This document shows positions 456 through 14,122 of a DNA stretch of 25,258 nucleotides, one piece after another. Numbering within the stretch: the first letter of the stretch is position 1; every line of letters starts with the position of its first letter. The notes beneath the pieces were generated by a model that saw only the letters and a list, made by a program, of their open reading frames with translations, was not told the DNA's origin and ran no database searches. This DNA is from a virus. Position numbers and translations under genes: made by a program. The DNA is taken from IMG/VR virus record IMGVR_UViG_3300028283_000333, positions 1 to 25,258 of that record, one strand, 5' to 3'.

Positions 456-2045
456 ATGGCTTTTACAAGTATAAATTCGGAGAAAGCACCAAATATACTG
501 TCTGGCTACACATCAGGAGCCGGAACGGTAGCCTCATCTGATTCGGTTCTCCAAGCTATCCAAAAGTTAAATGGTAACTTTGACGTTGGTCGTCTCTCAC
601 TCACTTATGGAGTCAAGTGGGTTACTGCTAACAGCTCCCCGATACTAACAAAAGGGATTGTAATCTGTGGGGGATTTTGGGTTGAGACTGGATACATATC
701 ATTACCAGTGCAGGAGCAGATGAAACGCTGCGTGCTGAACACCAGCAGTGTCAAAATTTATGACCTTGACCCTGCCGATTCTATCAACAAACTCAACGTA
801 GCACCTACAATCACTGGTACAGCTACGTCAACGACAACAAACAAGTTAATAGCAAGCGCTGAGACATTTGCAACGAAAGGTGTGGTGGCGGGCCAGTGGG
901 TGAAAAATGTTACAACTGGAAAAAGGTCGATGATAACCGCCGTTGACAGCAACACTGCACTATCCGTCAATGATAACATTTTCGTTTCAGGGGATGCGTA
1001 TTCAGTTGGAACCGCTAACCCAAAAGTCGATGGCGCAGTATTCACCGAAGTCCCTGCTTTCCACTATGTTTGGACTGAGGACGGAACAAACACTTACATT
1101 ATAATCAGTCAGTCACCATTTGTTTTTCGAAAACCATCTGCTGGCACACTGGTTGAAAGTGTGGTTCACCCTTGGTTTAACGAAGGCGGTGTTTATTCTA
1201 CAAATAAATACTTCTCGGCGTTTGAATCAATCTGGTATGACACATCCGCCTCTGCATATTTAAGCCACGATGGAGCGACTATCTGTGCATCAGATGATAA
1301 GGCTGTATCGCTCCCTGGATACACGCCATTAACTTGTCAATATCGTGGCACTACCAACCCGAATTATAGGACGCTTCATACCAATTTCGGAGCCAATTTT
1401 CACAGCAATGGGTTTTATGCTTACGAGGCGATCTGGATTTTAATGACGACTGAGTTCGCGTCCCTGGACGGTCAAACATATCTCCCTGGGTTCACGGCAG
1501 CAAGTGGGTGGTCATATGCCTATTGCAGAAAAACAGGCCGGACGATGGGGCTTGGAAATGCCAGTGGTAGTGTAGTTGTTGATTTAGCCGGGTTGGACTC
1601 TGTTTTATCCGGGATTTTGACAGCCGGTCTATATGTTGCCAATTCCTACCGTGGGATCGAGAATATTTATGGGCATATCTGGAAATGGGTTGATGGGATA
1701 AATATCAATTGGGGCAGTACCGGACAGGTATATTTATCTAACACTCCAGCGCAATGGGCAGAAGACACAGCTACAAATTACGGAAGTAGTGTTGCACTAC
1801 CAGCGTCAGATGGATATATATCAGCGTTATTTCCTGGCAGATTGCTACCAAAATTAGTTGCAGGAAGTTCATCTACATATCTCTGTGATTATTTTTACCA
1901 ACCTGGCGCGTCGGCGGGTTGGCGGGGTTTGCTTTCGGGCAGCGATCTGCCTGCTGGCGTGCGTGCGGGTCCCGCGTATCTGCGTGCGCATAGTTCGGGG
2001 TCCGGGTATCGCAATGCGAATTTCGGCGGGCGGGCTGCTGCTTAG
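456..2045 (+). CDS. DGR variable protein: tail fibre/adhesin with C-type-lectin-like C-terminus
   Basis: This 529-residue protein starts at ATG after an AAGGAG site. The N-terminus (SDSVLQAIQKLNGN, about 28-41) is typical of phage tail-fibre attachment segments. Residues ~110-190 look like a beta-sandwich spacer. From ~300 the text resembles the formylglycine-generating-enzyme/C-type-lectin fold used by DGR targets (GLGNASG, YRGIENIYGHIWKWVDGI). The last 46 residues (484-529) are encoded by the variable repeat. Compared with the template translation, 18 of those 46 residues differ, including nine template Asn codons (AAY) now encoding Asp, Pro, Ala, Arg, Tyr, His or Ser. The stop TAG overlaps the last repeat base, so the diversified surface is the extreme C-terminus. 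By analogy with Mtd of phage BPP-1 it should be the receptor-binding tip; that role is inferred. Confidence 0.9.
   Translation: MAFTSINSEKAPNILSGYTSGAGTVASSDSVLQAIQKLNGNFDVGRLSLTYGVKWVTANSSPILTKGIVICGGFWVETGYISLPVQEQMKRCVLNTSSVKIYDLDPADSINKLNVAPTITGTATSTTTNKLIASAETFATKGVVAGQWVKNVTTGKRSMITAVDSNTALSVNDNIFVSGDAYSVGTANPKVDGAVFTEVPAFHYVWTEDGTNTYIIISQSPFVFRKPSAGTLVESVVHPWFNEGGVYSTNKYFSAFESIWYDTSASAYLSHDGATICASDDKAVSLPGYTPLTCQYRGTTNPNYRTLHTNFGANFHSNGFYAYEAIWILMTTEFASLDGQTYLPGFTAASGWSYAYCRKTGRTMGLGNASGSVVVDLAGLDSVLSGILTAGLYVANSYRGIENIYGHIWKWVDGININWGSTGQVYLSNTPAQWAEDTATNYGSSVALPASDGYISALFPGRLLPKLVAGSSSTYLCDYFYQPGASAGWRGLLSGSDLPAGVRAGPAYLRAHSSGSGYRNANFGGRAAA
1904..2043 (+). repeat. DGR variable repeat (VR)
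   Basis: This 140-bp stretch aligns without gaps to the template repeat 194 bp downstream. There are 26 mismatches and all 26 fall on TR adenines (14 A to G, 8 A to C, 4 A to T); all 104 non-adenine TR positions are identical. Ten of 36 TR adenines are unchanged. The last seven bases (GCTGCTT) are identical in both copies and divergence starts immediately after, so an initiation-of-mutagenic-homing site, if present, is short. Confidence 0.96.
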
Positions 2046-2073
2046 AACCAGTAGATACATTATAAATATGATT

Positions 2074-2272
2074 TAGGGTTGATGTTGCGATGCTGTGTGG
2101 CGCGTCGGCGGGTTGGCAGAGTTTGATTTCAGGCAGCAATCTGAATAATGGCGTGAATGCAGGTCCCACGAATCTGAATGCGAATAATTCAGAGTCCGGG
2201 AATCGCAATGCGAATATCGGCAGGCAGGAAGCTGCTTTAAAAATTATAACTGTCAACACAACATCAACCTTG
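2074..2272 (+). ncRNA. Putative TR RNA domain closed by inverted repeat
   Basis: GGTTGATGTTG (2077-2087) and its exact complement CAACATCAACC (2259-2269) flank the template repeat. Adding flanking G-U and A-U pairs gives up to 14 pairs (2074-2087 with 2259-2272). In RNA this would close the whole TR into one domain of about 200 nt. A second small hairpin (TTGCC, loop tctc, GGCAA; 2270-2283) overlaps its 3' edge. DGRs are known to need structured sequence around TR; that this stem is that element is inference. Confidence 0.55.
2098..2237 (+). repeat. DGR template repeat (TR)
   Basis: This is the donor copy for mutagenic retrohoming and lies between the variable gene and the reverse transcriptase. 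It keeps the reading frame of the VR (GASAGWQSLISGSNL when translated), with AAT/AAC codons at the diversified positions; these can change to many residues without producing stops. It overlaps an 89-codon open frame at 2090-2359, which I take as a by-product of the repeat rather than a gene. Confidence 0.96.
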
Positions 2273-2362
2273 CCTCTCGGCAAAACAGGCTTATTTGGTT
2301 CATGCGGATTAGTACGGAGTCCGAACGTTCGCGACCATAAGCAGCAGTGGATTAAATAGAAA

Positions 2363-3400
2363 ATGAAACGACACAACGGAATATACACAGGCATTTACGC
2401 AATGCCAAACATTAGGTTAGCGCACACAAACGCAAGAAGAGGCAAAGGCCATTATTCAGAGGTTAAAATGGTAGATGCCGATCCAGAAAAATATTTCCAA
2501 GAAATCCATGAATTGTTAAAAAATAAGTCATTTATCAATTCACCGTATGAAATATTTTCACGGAACGAAACGGGGAAAACCCGAGAGATTTATAAACTCC
2601 CGTATTACCCGGATCGCATTATCCATCATTGCATCATGCAGATATTAGAGCCTATTTGGATGAACGTATTTATCAGAGATACCTACGCTTCGATGAAAAA
2701 CAGGGGTATTCATGACGGTGTTCGCCGGATGAAAACGTTTTTGAAAGATACTCATGGAACGGAATATTGTCTCAAGATGGATGTCCGAAAATTCTATCCA
2801 TCCATCGACCATGACATTTTAAAGGCGGTTATCCGGCGCAAAATTAAATGCAAGGACACGTTGTGGTTACTGGATGTTATCATAGACAGCGCTCCGGGTG
2901 TTCCAATCGGGAATTATCTCAGTCAATATATGGCCAACCTTTATTTGGCATATTTTGATCACTGGGTCAAAAGCGAATTGGGCATTAAATATTATTCCCG
3001 GTACTGTGACGATATTGTGGTACTCCATCATGACAAGTCGTTTCTGAGACGTGCATTTTACAAAATGCAGGAATATCTACACAATAATCTCAACCTGGAT
3101 ATAAAATCAAACTGGCAGATATTTCCAACGTCAGTCCGAGGCATAGATTTTCTTGGATATAGATTTTTTGGACACAAAACGATTATTCGCAAATCAATTG
3201 TGAAAGAGTTTCTCAAGAAAATAGACAAATTAAAGCCGAAGAATGTATCCCCAGGTGATGTCAATTCCACTATGAGTTATTATGGTTGGTTTGTGCATGG
3301 TAATGCTAATGGTTTGTGGCTAAAGAAAATAACCACAGATGTTAAATTGATGCTAATTGGCGCATGTCGATACAGTATCCCAAAACCAATAAGGATATAA
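2363..3400 (+). CDS. DGR reverse transcriptase
   Basis: This 345-residue protein has the full RT core. The catalytic-strand motif MDVRKFYPSID lies at 139-149, IGNYLSQ at 182-188, the active-site YCDD at 214-217, and the following GIDFLGYRF block at 260-268. The [V/I]GxxxSQ form of motif 4, in place of QGxxxSP, is a hallmark of the DGR clade. The protein copies the TR RNA with adenine-specific errors, and the cDNA replaces the VR. The ATG at 2363 has only a weak upstream site (AAATAGAAA), so expression may be low or depend on upstream transcription. It sits 126 bp after the TR, in the same orientation as the target gene. No Avd-type four-helix protein is encoded between target and RT. Confidence 0.96.
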   Translation: MKRHNGIYTGIYAMPNIRLAHTNARRGKGHYSEVKMVDADPEKYFQEIHELLKNKSFINSPYEIFSRNETGKTREIYKLPYYPDRIIHHCIMQILEPIWMNVFIRDTYASMKNRGIHDGVRRMKTFLKDTHGTEYCLKMDVRKFYPSIDHDILKAVIRRKIKCKDTLWLLDVIIDSAPGVPIGNYLSQYMANLYLAYFDHWVKSELGIKYYSRYCDDIVVLHHDKSFLRRAFYKMQEYLHNNLNLDIKSNWQIFPTSVRGIDFLGYRFFGHKTIIRKSIVKEFLKKIDKLKPKNVSPGDVNSTMSYYGWFVHGNANGLWLKKITTDVKLMLIGACRYSIPKPIRI

Positions 3401-3403
3401 AAA

Positions 3404-3820
3404 ATGATCTCACATAGCAATAACTACCCCATTGTAACCCAATACGATGATAGTCACATCGCCGTGCCTTTTGGCATTGTGGCTGTCGAGACAGGTGATC
3501 CTCCACAACCAGGATACGAATACAACCTGATTATTGTGCCTTCATCAGACATGATGAGCCAGTGCGCTTACATCAACTCAGTACAGTCAGTGCTTGATGT
3601 CACCGCACAAACCAGAGGATATGACGGCATCTTATCTGCTTGCACCTATGCCACATCCAACAATGTAACATTTGCAGCAGAGGGGCAGGCATGTGTTTCT
3701 TGGCGTGATGCAGTGTGGTCTAAATGCTACGAAATCCTGGCGGAGATACAATCAGGGATAAGACAGCCTCCAACAATCACAGAGCTGTTAAGCGAAATCC
3801 CTGTAGTAACATGGCCATAA
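3404..3820 (+). CDS. Phage tail-associated protein of unknown function
   Basis: This 138-residue protein starts at ATG after AAGGA. The second half carries a recognisable phage pattern: TRGYDGILSACTYATS, then FAAEGQACVSWRDAVW, then PPTITELLSEIP near the end. Proteins of this layout are common next to tail fibres and resemble DUF4376-type fibre or chaperone accessory proteins. It follows the reverse transcriptase by 3 bp, and its stop overlaps the ATG of the next gene by 10 bp, so the genes are probably co-translated. It does not look like Avd, being neither highly basic nor a four-helix bundle. The function is unknown; a role in fibre assembly is the most plausible guess. Confidence 0.75.
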   Translation: MISHSNNYPIVTQYDDSHIAVPFGIVAVETGDPPQPGYEYNLIIVPSSDMMSQCAYINSVQSVLDVTAQTRGYDGILSACTYATSNNVTFAAEGQACVSWRDAVWSKCYEILAEIQSGIRQPPTITELLSEIPVVTWP

Positions 3821-4137
3821 AACGTTTTGCTGAGTTTTCCGATGAACCAATTGGACTGGACGGAGATAAAATCCAACTGGACAGAGTATTGAATTCTGAA
3901 ATCTTAATAACCGGATACCGAATATTAACGAGCAAATATCCGGACAAGAACAAATCAGGAAAAGCATTGCAATTACAGTTCAAAATTTTAAAACATGGAA
4001 CAGATGACAATGACATCAGGCCGAATGTGCTATTTACAGGGTCAGATGTTTTAATAGACCAGATCACTAAATATTCTGAACATATCCCGTTTTATGCTCA
4101 GATCATTAAAATCAATAGGTATTATTCATTTAGGTAA
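3811..4137 (+). CDS. Small conserved-looking protein, possible DGR accessory factor
   Basis: This 108-residue protein begins at the ATG that overlaps the preceding stop (MAIKRFAEFSDE); a longer frame from 3724 would lie inside the upstream gene. The body alternates short hydrophobic strands with basic patches: ILITGYRILTSKYPDKN, then LQLQFKIL, then VLFTGSDVLIDQI, ending in IPFYAQIIKINRYYSF. This looks like a small beta-barrel (OB-like) nucleic-acid-binding fold, but I cannot name the family with certainty. It lies two genes after the reverse transcriptase in a cassette with no avd gene, which makes it a candidate accessory protein. That role is inference from position and fold impression only. 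Confidence 0.7.
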   Translation: MAIKRFAEFSDEPIGLDGDKIQLDRVLNSEILITGYRILTSKYPDKNKSGKALQLQFKILKHGTDDNDIRPNVLFTGSDVLIDQITKYSEHIPFYAQIIKINRYYSFR

Positions 4138-4143
4138 TAATCA

Positions 4144-4368
4144 ATGCAGGATAATAGATGTACAGGATTTCCAAACGGAAACTGGCTTGAGTGCTGCCAG
4201 TCGCATGACTACTCTGTTGCTGATGCTGAGTGTCAAAAGTCTTCTCCCATGCGTCTGAAAGCCGATCAAGAACTCAGACGGTGTGTATCTGCAAAGGGAC
4301 ATCCTTGTATAGCGTTACTGATGTATGCTGCTATCCGTGTTTATGTAAACATCAAGGGAGGCTTTTGA
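4144..4368 (+). CDS. Phospholipase A2-like small protein
   Basis: This 74-residue cysteine-rich protein contains CTGFPNGNWLECCQSHDYS. The CCxxHD core matches the active-site helix of secreted phospholipase A2, where His is catalytic and Asp/Cys positions are conserved. A second conserved-looking segment (LRRCVSAKGHPCIALLMYAAIR) follows. The usual upstream calcium loop is short or absent, and the protein is at the small end of the family. It sits between tail genes and lysis genes. Possible roles are damage to the membrane during entry or exit; neither can be decided here. Start ATG 4144 has a weak ribosome site. Confidence 0.6.
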   Translation: MQDNRCTGFPNGNWLECCQSHDYSVADAECQKSSPMRLKADQELRRCVSAKGHPCIALLMYAAIRVYVNIKGGF

Positions 4369-4369
4369 A

Positions 4370-4723
4370 TTGAAATTAGAAAGACTTAGAGAAATGCTTA
4401 AAACACAGAATCCTTTCATTTTTGAGGGTGAATGTATGGATTGTCGATCATCAGTGATTGTCACTGCAACTCAGGACGATGAAGATACCATTATAGTTGG
4501 TGGCGCAGTATTTCAGCCACCGGCAGACTGGCATTCGCAGACTGAATATCTGATGAAGTGCGACGGCTGCTATGAAAAGTCTCCGGTGTTTAACCCAAAA
4601 ACCGAGATTTATAGTAGAATTGTCGGGTACTTACGGCCAGTAGAGAACTGGCATGTTAGCAAAAAAGCTGAATGGAAAAGCAGGAAAACCTTTGCAGTCG
4701 AATCTATGAACGTCTATCCATAA
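4370..4723 (+). CDS. Zinc protein resembling the C-terminus of anaerobic ribonucleotide reductase (NrdD)
   Basis: The start is TTG at 4370, eight bases after GGGAGG. The 117-residue product has two CxxC pairs (C22/C25 and C64/C67) that could hold one zinc ion. Residues ~80-108 read IYSRIVGYLRPVENW then WKSRKTF. This closely recalls the C-terminal end of class III ribonucleotide reductase, where a similar YSRxxGYxRPVxxWN segment follows the zinc site and precedes the glycyl-radical loop. The glycyl-radical motif itself and the whole catalytic barrel are missing, so it cannot be a reductase. It may be a captured domain or an independent small protein that shares the module. Function unknown. 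Confidence 0.6.
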   Translation: MKLERLREMLKTQNPFIFEGECMDCRSSVIVTATQDDEDTIIVGGAVFQPPADWHSQTEYLMKCDGCYEKSPVFNPKTEIYSRIVGYLRPVENWHVSKKAEWKSRKTFAVESMNVYP

Positions 4724-5516: not shown

Positions 5517-5946
5517 TTTTGAAATATTGACACACGAAGCAACGGACAAGGTTTTTCTTGCTCTGGTTGTCTGGCGTGAGGCACGCGGGGAATCATACGA
5601 AGGAAAGGTGGCGGTGGCGTCAAGTATCATGAACCGTGTGGCCAGACCATCATGGTGGGGTAATGACTTGCTTTCGGTTGTCTTCAAGAAATGGCAGTAT
5701 TCATCTATGACAGATCCGAAGGATAAACAACTTACGACTTGGCCACGAAAAACCGCAGTTGATTGGCTTGAGTGTTTACTGGTTGCAAGCAATGCGGTTG
5801 ATGGGATAGTGGAAAACCCGGTTCCGGGCGCGGATGGGTATTACGACATATCCATATCTCCGCCGAAATGGGCAACGGCTGAGACGTTTGTTAAGCAGAT
5901 AGGGAAACTGAGATTTCATAATTTGGATCGGGATGTTGAAAAATGA
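5509..5946 (+). CDS. Cell wall hydrolase, SleB (Hydrolase_2) family
   Basis: This 145-residue protein carries the family signature: WREARGESYEGKVAVASSIMNRV at about 22-44, with E24 in the place of the catalytic glutamate, WQYSSMTD near 64, and ADGYYDISISPPKWA followed by FVKQIGKLRFH near the end. The family cleaves peptidoglycan glycan strands (SleB, CwlJ and phage relatives). No signal peptide is visible, so export would need a holin, or the protein acts from the virion. It could be an endolysin beside the transglycosylase at 8070. Its stop overlaps the next ATG (ATGA). Confidence 0.88.
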   Translation: MIDFEILTHEATDKVFLALVVWREARGESYEGKVAVASSIMNRVARPSWWGNDLLSVVFKKWQYSSMTDPKDKQLTTWPRKTAVDWLECLLVASNAVDGIVENPVPGADGYYDISISPPKWATAETFVKQIGKLRFHNLDRDVEK

Positions 5947-6158
5947 TACTGAAGCCAATTAAAACGAATGATACTTGCGTGGAATATTTTGAAGATAACT
6001 CGACCTGTCCATATGAATTGTCGTATCCCATAGGATACTATACGACAAGTTACCCTTCTGTTGAGACATGTGAACAGCCTGTCAGACGTAGATATGTTAA
6101 TACAAGTTATCCTGATAGTGTCGTTAAATTGCGACTATCTCCGAGGGAAATGAGATGA
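5943..6158 (+). CDS. Small cysteine/tyrosine-rich protein with duplicated C-terminal module
   Basis: This 71-residue protein starts inside the stop of the hydrolase gene (ATGA overlap). The middle is rich in Tyr, Ser, Pro and Cys (DNSTCPYELSYPIGYYTTSY). The last ~25 residues (RRRYVNTSY, then VVKLRLSPREM) recur at the end of the protein at 6534-6836. The shared DNA block is about 40 bp (6120-6159 and 6798-6837). Function unknown. Confidence 0.55.
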   Translation: MILKPIKTNDTCVEYFEDNSTCPYELSYPIGYYTTSYPSVETCEQPVRRRYVNTSYPDSVVKLRLSPREMR

Positions 6159-6176
6159 TATTTGGATTGGTAAAGT

Positions 6177-6368
6177 ATGCCCCGCTATGAAATAACATCA
6201 GGAATAGATTCTTTTTCTTACAAGCATAACGAGGATGCTGTTACGATAAGCATAAATCCTGATAATAGTTATTACACTTATTCGCGGGCGTTTGTTAAAG
6301 TCGAAGAGTTTAAGTTTGTTGAAAAGAAGTCAAAGCCACATCATATACGGAAACTAAAGGGATGGTAA
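6177..6368 (+). CDS. Hypothetical phage protein
   Basis: This 63-residue protein starts at ATG 6177, with GGATTGGTAAAG just upstream. It is rich in Tyr, Ser and Lys with a basic tail (KKSKPHHIRKLKGW). There are no membrane segments or cysteines and I recognise no family. It is tightly packed between two small genes of the same strand. Confidence 0.5.
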   Translation: MPRYEITSGIDSFSYKHNEDAVTISINPDNSYYTYSRAFVKVEEFKFVEKKSKPHHIRKLKGW

Positions 6369-9093: not shown

Positions 9094-10305
9094 TCACCCG
9101 ATTTTCCGTATAGGTATGACATTCGATAGATTCATTTTTTCCATATCTTTAATCGCGCTCCGCAGCCTATCCGCAGTGATATGGCTGTAGCGTTCAGTAG
9201 TGGTAACGCTTGCATGGCCCAGCAGTTCCTTTACGCGATAAATATCAGCACCAGATTCAAGAAGCCTGCTTGCGTGCGTATGCCTCAAAGAATGGAATAC
9301 GCACTTCAATCTGTTATCATTAATCCCTGTATTCAGCCCCAGAGTATCTACGACATCATCAAAGGTTTTACTGATATGTTTAATCTGGTTCCCGTTTCTA
9401 TCGGGGAATATCAGCGCATCAGGCCCGGTTTTTGGCATCCCGGAAAACAAGTCCTTGATTCGCTCGGTCATGTAAACAGTTCGGTTTTTACCGCTTTTGG
9501 TATCCATGAGTGCCAAAGTCTCCCGCACACAATCGACGTTTTGCCATTGCAGCCCTGCAATTTCCGAAAATCTTGTTCCGGCATCCAGGGAAATAAGCGC
9601 CATTTGATAGGTTGTTACTGAATGTTTTTTCAATTCTTCAAGCAGTCTGTCACATTCATCCGGCGTCAAATACCTTTGCCGCTTGTTATCAAACTTTGGG
9701 ATTTTGACATCCCTGGTGGGTGGATCTACTGCTACAATACCGGCACGGCGTGCATGGTTCCAGACCTGCCGGATTGTGGCGAAACAATATTGAATCATTC
9801 TCGGTGATCTTCCAGCATCAAGCAGATTTTTCTTGATTCGCTCGATGTGAAAACTTGATATGTCTTTCATCGGAATGTTACCGACAACAGGAAAAATCCA
9901 AACGATTCCGTGTTGCTCTTCTTTAACCCAAGTCTCCCGGTCTTTGTGCGTTTTTTGTATCGGCAAATATTCATTTTCAAAAAAAGTTTTGAATGTGATG
10001 TTTACAGCTTCAATTCGTGCCTTTTCAATATTCAAAGCCAGTTTTGCAGCATTTACTACTTTTCTTTTATCTGACAGGGTTTTTTCACCTTCTCCGGTTC
10101 TGGCGTTTCTTTTAAGTTCAGCCAGGGTATCTCTCGCTTTTGTGATCGCCCAACCTTGAGAAGCCCATCCTAAGCCTTCCTCTTTTTCCTTACCATCAAC
10201 TCTGTATCTGATAGAAAAATACCGATCAAGTTGTAATCCATGTTTACGGCTGGCATGTTCCTTATAGCGTACACCTTGTGCTTTTGCTTTAACCCATTTC
10301 GACAC
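9094..10305 (-). CDS. int: Tyrosine-family phage integrase
   Basis: This 403-residue protein starts at GTG preceded by GGGGGTAAG. It has an N-terminal arm-binding segment (FSIRYRVDGKEKEEGLGW), a core-binding domain (about 100-200) and a catalytic domain. Catalytic residues are visible: R245 in DAGTRFSEIAG, H338 and R341 in HSLRHTH, H364 in LLGHAS, and the nucleophile Y373 in TERYSH. It cuts and joins attP and attB by site-specific recombination. The gene is read towards the late-operon terminator, and its 5' end faces the attP core and arm repeats at 10322-10599, the usual int-att arrangement. Confidence 0.97.
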   Translation of the reverse strand: MSKWVKAKAQGVRYKEHASRKHGLQLDRYFSIRYRVDGKEKEEGLGWASQGWAITKARDTLAELKRNARTGEGEKTLSDKRKVVNAAKLALNIEKARIEAVNITFKTFFENEYLPIQKTHKDRETWVKEEQHGIVWIFPVVGNIPMKDISSFHIERIKKNLLDAGRSPRMIQYCFATIRQVWNHARRAGIVAVDPPTRDVKIPKFDNKRQRYLTPDECDRLLEELKKHSVTTYQMALISLDAGTRFSEIAGLQWQNVDCVRETLALMDTKSGKNRTVYMTERIKDLFSGMPKTGPDALIFPDRNGNQIKHISKTFDDVVDTLGLNTGINDNRLKCVFHSLRHTHASRLLESGADIYRVKELLGHASVTTTERYSHITADRLRSAIKDMEKMNLSNVIPIRKIG

Positions 10306-10321
10306 CTTACCCCCATAAAAG

Positions 10322-10599
10322 TTATCCCGTATCTATCCCGTATTTTTTATTGGAAATTAATGATTTATAAGGAAACTTTAGGATGGATATAACACCACAT
10401 CATTTGTAATGTCAATTATTTATTGCTGGTTTAGGAAAGTATGGGAAGTGTCAGGAAATGACATATAAGAGACTGAAAATCCCCGTGTGGGCGGTTCGAT
10501 TCCGTCCCTCGGCACTTGAAAAATCAAGGGGTTACAGCGAAAAGCTGTAACCCCTTTTTTATTGTGACAGATTTTATCCCGTATCTGTCCCGTGTTTTT
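10322..10599. other. Phage attachment site attP with tRNA-Phe 3' core and arm repeats
   Basis: The core 10471-10514 reads as the 3' part of a tRNA-Phe gene: anticodon loop CTGAAAA, stem TCCCC, variable GTGTG, T-arm GGCGG-TTCGATT-CCGTC, acceptor CCTCGGC plus A. The 5' half is absent, and CTT replaces CCA after the A. Outside the core are two copies of a paired repeat, TTATCCCGTATCT[A/G]TCCCGT (10322-10348 and 10574-10599). Each contains two 9-bp units 11 bp apart, as expected for integrase arm sites. A small dyad (TGTCA-ggaaa-TGACA, 10449-10463) borders the core. Because phage genes lie on both sides, this is attP rather than attL or attR. Confidence 0.8.
10526..10560. terminator. Terminator after the tRNA-Phe fragment
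   Basis: A perfect 13-bp stem (AAGGGGTTACAGC at 10526-10538, GCTGTAACCCCTT at 10544-10556) has loop GAAAA and a T tract to 10560. It follows the tRNA fragment as the native terminator of a host tRNA gene would, so it may have been captured with the core. It would also insulate integrase from leftward early transcription. Confidence 0.85.
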
Positions 10600-13041: not shown

Positions 13042-13210
13042 TGCTATTTAATTCAGTCAGCAATGGTAGCCGCCAGTCGGTATAACCTGCGAGTTGTAGT
13101 TTTTCGCAATATGACAAAGCATCCTTCCAAGACATAAACATTGCTGTTTCTTACTGCCACATCAGACTGGTGGTTTCGTCGGTTACAGTACCGTTGCCGT
13201 TGTCGATCAT
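13004..13210 (-). pseudogene. Third DUF1566 copy, broken by in-frame stop and truncated
   Basis: The ATG at 13210 overlaps the stop of the upstream copy. Translation gives MIDNGNGTVTDETTSLMWQ, then TAA (13153-13151), where the intact copies have CAA (Gln). The frame then continues ETAMFMSWKDALSYCEKLQL and AGYTDWRLPLLTELN. Similarity ends near 13040, where the methyltransferase remnant begins, so the C-terminal half of the domain is gone. It is a nonsense-mutated, 3'-truncated paralogue of the two genes upstream. Confidence 0.75.
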
Positions 13211-13581
13211 TGTTTTCCTCCCCGAATAGCGCGGACATAATAACTGTATTTTTTGGTTTCCAGGCCGTCATGGCCATATTCGAAGTTCACTCCCCACGCA
13301 TAATCCTCATTGAGTGCAGCGGTAGTAGAAGACCAATAAAATGACGACTTCGCATCCAGAAAGTACTTTGTATTGATTGCCGGATTATAGCGGCTGTAGT
13401 CCACCAGACTTAGTAATTCCTTGATGGTAGGCAGCCGCCAGTCTGTATGGCCGCCAAGATTCAGCCTCTCACAATAAGATAGTGCCTGTCTCCATGACAT
13501 CATGTTGTTTTGTATCGTTTCTTGTTGCCACATAAGACCGGTGGCTTCATCGGTTACAGTACCGTTGCCATTATCAATCAT
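13207..13581 (-). CDS. DUF1566 (Lcl-type C-type-lectin-like) protein, copy 2
   Basis: This 124-residue protein consists of one DUF1566 domain: DEATGLMWQQE, SWRQALSYCERLNLGGHTDWRLPTIKELLSLVDYS, SSFYWSSTTAALNEDYAWGVNF and YYVRAIRGG. The domain shares the C-type-lectin-like/FGE fold and is usually found in secreted or surface proteins, but no signal peptide is seen here. Its start and stop overlap the flanking copies by ATGA, so the three are one translational unit. It is closely similar to copy 1 and the pair arose by tandem duplication. Function in the phage is unknown. Confidence 0.85.
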   Translation of the reverse strand: MIDNGNGTVTDEATGLMWQQETIQNNMMSWRQALSYCERLNLGGHTDWRLPTIKELLSLVDYSRYNPAINTKYFLDAKSSFYWSSTTAALNEDYAWGVNFEYGHDGLETKKYSYYVRAIRGGKQ

Positions 13582-13955
13582 TTTTCCTCCCCTCGAACAG
13601 CGCGGACATACAAACTGACGTTCTTATAGTTCATGTAGTCGTGGCCGTTGTAGAAATACACGCTCCAAGCAAGGAGCGTATCGCTTGCGTAGGTAGTAGA
13701 AGACCAATAAAGGGACGAAACAACCGCAGTTAGAAAGTAAGCCGTATCAATCGCTGGATTATGTCGCCTGTAATCCACCAGGCTTATTAATTCTTTAATG
13801 GTAGGTAGCCGCCAGTCAGTATGGCCTCCAAGATTCAGCCTCTCACAATAAGATAGTGCCTGTATCCATGACATCGTGTTGTTTGGTATCGTTTCCTGCT
13901 GCCACATCAGACCGGTGGATTCGTCGGTTACTGTACCATTGTCGTTATCAATCAT
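13578..13955 (-). CDS. DUF1566 (Lcl-type C-type-lectin-like) protein, copy 1
   Basis: The start is taken at ATG 13955 (MIDNDNGTVTDE), which aligns with the other copies and has GAAAGGG upstream; a longer frame from 13976 lies in the previous gene. The 125-residue product has the same blocks as copy 2 (TGLMWQQETI, SYCERLNLGGHTDWRLPTIK, SLYWSSTTYASDTLLAW, LYVRAVRGEE). It diverges most in the segment between YWSSTT and YVRA, the ligand-side loops of the fold. Confidence 0.85.
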   Translation of the reverse strand: MIDNDNGTVTDESTGLMWQQETIPNNTMSWIQALSYCERLNLGGHTDWRLPTIKELISLVDYRRHNPAIDTAYFLTAVVSSLYWSSTTYASDTLLAWSVYFYNGHDYMNYKNVSLYVRAVRGEEK

Positions 13956-14122
13956 GGTTTCCCTTTCAGTTTGCATGTTGCCGACTTAAAAAATGCCAGT
14001 CTATCGTTCTTAATTTTCCATGAACTATCCAAAGATGTCAGTATTGCATCAACGATAGACTGATTGTCTGTTTTTTGGTATTCGCCGTCCAATTCCAGTT
14101 CGATTTCAACGATTGCTCTCAT
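13952..14122 (-). CDS. Small protein upstream of DUF1566 array
   Basis: This 56-residue frame has a strong CCAGGAG site before ATG 14122. It ends in ATGA overlap with DUF1566 copy 1, so it probably leads that translational unit. The sequence (MRAIVEIELELDGEYQKTDN, then SSWKIKNDRLAFFKSATCK) suggests a short beta-alpha protein. No family recognised. Confidence 0.55.
   Translation of the reverse strand: MRAIVEIELELDGEYQKTDNQSIVDAILTSLDSSWKIKNDRLAFFKSATCKLKGKP

Follow-up and report, generated by a model that had tools for sequence, protein, structure and literature searches.

In the diversity-generating retroelement (DGR) of phage BPP-1, the accessory protein Avd is essential, and it folds as an all-helical bundle. 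The accessory types described for DGRs are Avd, HRDC and MSL (PMC10053308), and a known accessory gene is said to be missing in about a quarter of the described elements (PMC7290462). DGRs without avd are known, in particular, in crAss-like phages, namely that of crAssphage LMMB and those with the 'lineage 3' reverse transcriptases (RTs) of Wu et al. 2018 (PMC7290462). According to the account given in PMC10053308, Wu et al. 2018 put forward one further accessory protein, to which no Pfam/CDD entry was attributed. Here we analyze a DGR encoded in a 25,258-nt stretch of viral DNA (IMG/VR record IMGVR_UViG_3300028283_000333, positions 1-25,258; hereafter, the window). We consider it probable that the element works, or worked until recently, as a DGR in which a small protein with an oligonucleotide/oligosaccharide-binding (OB)-like fold most likely takes the role of Avd, as it would in the RT clade to which this element belongs.

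The element is a genuine DGR and an ordinary representative of the known type. The target gene (456-2045, plus strand) encodes a 529-aa protein that matches phrog_5302 'tail protein' (E = 4.8e-51), as the preliminary description of this DNA, made from the sequence alone, had proposed. Its last 46 codons (residues 484-529) make up the variable repeat (VR; 1904-2043), which is followed on the same strand by the template repeat (TR; 2098-2237) and by the gene for a DGR-type RT of 345 aa (2363-3400; PF00078, E = 2.5e-18; phrog_1423, E = 2e-113). The RT contains both motifs reported previously, IGNYLSQ and YCDD, which fit the DGR-type (I/V/L)GxxxSQ and YxDD patterns, and the best solved relative of the RT profile is 8ub7 (E = 7e-64; 328 aa, the length of the BPP-1 bRT), a match far above those to group II intron and retron RTs. 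Comparison of the VR with the TR, which are 140 bp each and have a spacing of 194 bp, reveals 26 mismatches, and a TR adenine lies opposite every one of them (A>G at 14, A>C at 8 and A>T at 4 sites); 10 of the 36 TR adenines are unchanged, as are all 104 non-adenine positions, and the hypergeometric probability that all 26 differences fall on adenines by chance is 1.9e-20. On recomputation, the repeat lengths and the counts of differences agree exactly with those in the preliminary description, as does the count of 18 altered residues among the 46 encoded by the VR. The window contig contains no VR copies other than the one in this pair, and no near-identical copies with other VRs turned up when viral contigs were searched with an exact DNA pattern. 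That description further presented the element at 1904-3400 as complete, which holds in part: the DGR parts are present, but no Avd was found there, and the probable accessory gene is located beyond these coordinates, extending the cassette to about 4137.

The candidate accessory protein (108 aa; 3811-4137, plus strand) is encoded by a gene that overlaps the preceding one by 10 bp. Its sequence matches the C-terminal 100 residues encoded by the RT open reading frame (ORF) in two related loci (L008 and L012; E = 1.9e-15), and the family is marked by conserved G, P and F residues as well as by an FT/FS motif. No model in Pfam or NCBIfam matches the family, and the 108-aa protein itself has no match to the S23/Avd models of Pfam. 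In PHROGs, the relatives of the family are phrog_19665 and phrog_29953, which match both members of the accessory family and the C-terminal domains of RTs; these two groups are without assigned function, and the window's own copy fails to reach them. The AlphaFold2 model of the accessory protein (predicted local distance difference test score, pLDDT, 81) has the OB order of elements, b-b-b-a-b-b, unlike the all-helical bundle of Avd. In comparison with solved structures, mostly OB proteins (SSB, Rim1 and PriB) come on top, with Z scores of 5-6, the best of which, 6.1, is moderate. Among predicted viral structures, the two significant matches are both viral RTs (template modelling score, TM, 0.65 and 0.63), and the weak ones include a crAss-like RT (cr7_1) and several single-stranded DNA-binding proteins.

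Pfam scans detected no Avd in the neighboring ORFs of the window, nor in 78 ORFs flanking related RTs. When BPP-1 Avd was compared with 25,304 ORFs from all loci, the sole match was in Vibrio phage VP58.5, which is without the OB-like family. This distribution is suggestive of Avd and the OB-like family being alternatives in the examined loci.

The OB-like family is linked to RTs in the genomes and has been repeatedly fused to them. A profile search found it in 35 of the 47 initial RT loci, in several arrangements: downstream of the RT (the window, its close relative L003 and Bacteroides-type phages), as a C-terminal fusion to the RT (L007, L008, L009 and L012), upstream, between the target and the RT (L011), and on both sides of the RT (L004 and L005). 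In L004, the two copies that flank the RT (3838-4221 and 5882-6193) are diverged. Further cases of fusion are found in hankyphage p00 and Bacteroides phage BS-TP4. A search of viral contigs with the accessory only yielded 35 loci, 34 of which have an RT adjacent to it; among the newly fetched loci, a DGR-type RT lies alongside in 31 of 32, the exception (L058) ending at the contig end, and all three refetched loci (L028, L031 and L033) contain the RT. This test is only partly independent because most of these loci are on contigs already found by the RT search.

A scan of genome contigs that started from the RT gave 80 loci, nearly all from Bacteroidota, and the accessory is present at 75 of these (5 fused, 63 downstream and 7 upstream). 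As for the five misses, one contig (L121) has no sequence past the RT, and the other four (L092, L094, L114 and L120) begin no more than 160 bp upstream of the RT, which, in each of them, groups on the tree with RTs of the upstream-type loci. An adenine-biased TR/VR pair was identified at 71 of the 80 loci, and 70 of these 71 have the accessory. Whole-genome scans of six genomes showed a maximum of one accessory copy each. In a sample of 295 genomes of the same class as a Flavobacterium genome, the accessory was detected in 6 and the RT in 10; all six copies lie beside or within those RTs, and none was found among the 285 genomes without such an RT. With the index genome left out, the five accessory-carrying genomes all fall within the 9 RT genomes of 294 (P about 7e-9, by hand calculation). 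On the RT tree, at least 13 changes of arrangement are required, and the fusions occur in separate branches. The persistence of the linkage through so many rearrangements points to a function with the RT rather than to shared operon inheritance. The C-terminal extension of the L010 and L013 RTs was considered as another copy of the domain and rejected, with no support from hhalign.

Several observations weigh against assigning the role of Avd to this protein. A Foldseek search of the PDB with the accessory model gave nothing below E = 0.97, the OB assignment of the model is supported only moderately, and the charge of the protein is near neutral in many family members, so that nucleic-acid binding is not obvious. 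Accessory copies detectable by sequence were found neither in crAss-like phages with related RTs, nor in Perkons, nor in L006, so the accessory is not universal in the wider RT clade. One of the sampled genomes (G240, locus L170) has a close RT and no copy detected within about 2.4 kb downstream. Finally, in the window itself, a tail-type gene separates the accessory from the RT.

A rival explanation is that the DGR is genuine and the product of 3811-4137 is a passenger, or a tail or lysis protein, with no part in retrohoming. The placement of the window copy behind a probable tail-assembly gene, that of the Bacteroides phage copies behind another conserved gene, and the related RTs that have no detectable copy would all be compatible with such a bystander. 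We nevertheless regard this explanation as unlikely because several branches have RTs to which the domain is fused, because it is found on either side of the RT, and because it also occurs beside RTs in bacterial genome contigs, with whole-genome scans placing copies only next to such RTs. A broader proposition, for which we see the chances as evenly balanced, is that, in a large DGR clade found mainly among Bacteroidota and the phages that infect them, Avd is replaced by an OB-fold subunit or RT domain that has gone unrecognised, with shifts between the separate and fused states; the window would then represent a separate gene displaced by a tail gene.

The gene in question (3404-3820, plus strand), which lies between the RT and the accessory, encodes a 138-aa protein with no family match, which is probably tail-fibre assembly/chaperone-like. 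In Bacteroides-type loci (for example, L016, 6995-7438), a conserved gene for a protein of about 140 aa (YNHNIKEV...KLxNEYNSAxLG) is located between the RT and the accessory; the 138-aa gene of the window occupies the same place, without detectable similarity.

In the most likely mechanism, the RT makes an adenine-directed, error-prone copy of a TR RNA with a structured spacer, and the resulting cDNA replaces the VR upstream of the initiation of mutagenic homing (IMH) element at the 3' end of the tail-protein gene, so that the tail tip is altered. In our proposal, the OB-like protein would join the RT and handle the single-stranded template RNA or cDNA, in priming, synthesis or homing. We infer that it forms a physical complex with the RT, binds nucleic acid and is required for homing. 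The TR-RT spacer (2238-2362, plus strand) is foldable, at about -27 kcal/mol both in the window and in L003, and, by analogy with BPP-1, is a candidate for the RNA part that would recruit the RT; an Rfam scan of the window, this spacer included, gave no match.

A sister of the window phage, L003 (contig IMGVR 3300021069_000022), permits a comparison of two lineages of the same element. The entire cassette is shared, with 89% DNA identity and 92% amino acid identity of the RT, and the differences include other VR residues and two C>T changes in the VR. The L003 VR differs from its own TR at 31 positions, 29 of them adenines. A comparison of the window VR with the L003 VR shows differences at 16 of the 33 shared TR-adenine sites vs 2 of the 96 other shared sites. 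The TRs of the two phages also differ at four non-adenine positions (1929, 2006, 2012 and 2015), and at each of them the VR of either phage agrees with its own TR, which indicates that the TR was copied into the VR after the lineages separated. As judged from these sequences, copying from TR to VR has occurred since the split in at least one lineage and probably in both, on an evolutionary time scale that is distinct from current activity. By the ratio of nonsynonymous to synonymous substitution rates (dN/dS) between the two phages, the accessory gene, at 0.014, is the one held most tightly within the cassette, under strong purifying selection; it is followed by the target with the VR excluded (0.082), the 138-aa gene (0.106) and the RT (0.134).

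These data bear on the possibility that the element is a relic, with a VR that was mutated in the past and a DGR that is now inactive. The absence of Avd could be taken in this sense, and one assembled VR cannot reveal current activity. A relic is, in our assessment, quite improbable, given that the RT and target frames are intact, that the VR and TR match at all 104 non-adenine positions, that the RT (0.134) and the accessory (0.014) are under purifying selection, and that changes in the TR after the split from L003 have been carried into the VR. Still more remote is the reading that the repeats arose by simple duplication and were then changed by a different mutator, such as a deaminase, from which adenine-focused change as such could come, or by sequencing error, given that adenine is replaced by all three other bases, that the pair lies beside a DGR-type RT, and that the pattern recurs in L003 and at the 71 genome loci noted above.

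The comparison with L003 also refines the record of mutagenesis. At the 3' end of the VR, a probable IMH (CGGCGGGCGGGCTGCTGCTT; 2024-2043, plus strand) has its counterpart, IMH*, in the TR at 2218-2237. This stretch is G/C-rich, and at all four of its adenine-facing sites (2028, 2032, 2035 and 2036), the window VR and the L003 VR carry the same non-adenine base, so these sites appear to represent a fixed difference between IMH and IMH* rather than evidence of mutagenesis. A change in the L003 VR at 2041 departs from L003's own TR. Judging from these two lineages, 2024-2043 is probably the IMH, a stretch that would not be transferred. The previous claim of direct evidence of past adenine mutagenesis therefore stands on the adenine-only differences and on the comparison with L003, but 4 of the 26 differences are better explained by the IMH/IMH* pair; with these sites set aside, the record of mutagenesis consists of 22 sites, some of which (for example, 1932 and 1937) are common to both VRs. 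At the other end of the repeat, the first 20 bases of the TR (2098-2117) are adenine-free in the window and likewise in L003, so that an upstream homology arm would stay unchanged during homing. A hairpin downstream of the VR is found in only a subset of DGRs; in the window, a small inverted repeat 3' of the VR (TAAAT-ATG-ATTTA; 2063-2076, plus strand) is weak, with a 5-bp stem, and is conserved in L003.

The TR is arranged such that 17, 15 and 4 of its adenines occupy codon positions 1, 2 and 3, respectively, in the target frame, and replacement of adenine by any other base can create no stop codon in this frame vs 6 and 7 in the two other frames; about 10^18.9 protein variants are reachable through such replacements. 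The relatives of the target are annotated tail or target proteins of crAss-like phages, and its L003 counterpart is a single long ORF with a start further upstream. VR replacement would alter up to 46 C-terminal residues and hence, given that the target is a tail protein, probably receptor binding; a host-range effect, as suggested in the preliminary description, could follow. A Pfam search of the target protein gave no match, and a link to C-type lectins was not detected, with no sequence relative in the PDB and no hhalign match to Mtd. For residues 484-529, which the preliminary description suggested modelling on Mtd/TvpA structures, AlphaFold2 gave no usable model, the mean pLDDT being 30.

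The previous assignment of the DGR to the tail operon of a temperate phage is borne out by the nature of the target and by a tyrosine integrase (9094-10305, minus strand) identified by database search. Beside the integrase, at about 10470-10515 on the plus strand, there is a tRNA 3' half, apparently from tRNA-Phe (GACTGAAAATCCCCGTGTGGGCGGTTCGATTCCGTCCCTCGGCAC), which is likely to be the phage attachment site; ARAGORN reported no whole tRNA. The contig also encodes lysis-type proteins, a transglycosylase-like SLT protein and a cell-wall hydrolase. A 117-aa protein (4370-4723, plus strand) matches only the C-terminal end of the anaerobic ribonucleotide reductase NRDD (PF13597, E = 2e-8) and may be a zinc-binding module that has strayed from its usual context. 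On the minus strand, two Lcl_C (DUF1566) genes lie in tandem (13207-13581 and 13578-13976) and form a duplicated lectin-like pair; this tandem at 13.2-14.0 kb was examined as a second TR/VR-like system and rejected, its 83 nucleotide differences showing no adenine bias.

A small protein that is found only with these RTs and has been repeatedly fused to them offers a direct, testable answer for DGRs without a known accessory, and one copy of the domain already resides within the RT of an element whose activity has been demonstrated by experiment, the hankyphage DGR. An OB-like accessory could also help transplant gut-phage DGRs into laboratory hosts as protein-diversification tools. In the literature surveyed, which did not extend to Wu et al. 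2018, PMC7159879 and PMC7824862 (the latter two mention DGRs and OB folds), we found no description of an OB-like DGR accessory or of its fusion to the RT. The unnamed accessory of Wu et al. 2018 may be the OB-like family, in which case it would have been noticed earlier.

Compared with the BPP-1 DGR (mtd-avd-TR-brt), the window element has the same order of target-VR, TR and RT, a tail-protein target, the same A-to-N pattern, and an RT that is 36% identical over 290 aligned positions. In BPP-1, Avd is encoded between the target and the TR, and none of the cassette proteins belongs to the OB-like family, whereas the window has, instead, the OB-like gene two places 3' of the RT. The DGRs of crAss-like phages share with the window the order target-VR-TR-RT, the lack of avd, the tail target and an RT up to 52% identical to that of the window, but those tested have no sequence-detectable OB-like gene within 6 kb, and the RT of cr7_1 is a weak structural match. 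In several crAss-like loci (L039, L040, L043, L044 and L048), the RT genes are open only if TAG encodes an amino acid and are therefore broken by annotation with the standard code; with TAG read as Q in the recoded crAss-like phages, the RT was restored, and no accessory was found by sequence. In the Bacteroides hankyphage p00, the DGR is likewise aimed at a tail-fibre gene, which it diversifies in culture (PMC12135933), and the OB-like domain is present as well. Its describers mark a different, separate small ORF as Avd-like (PMC6199706). Unlike in the window, where the OB-like protein is encoded by a gene of its own, the domain in this phage is fused to the C-terminus of a more distant RT.

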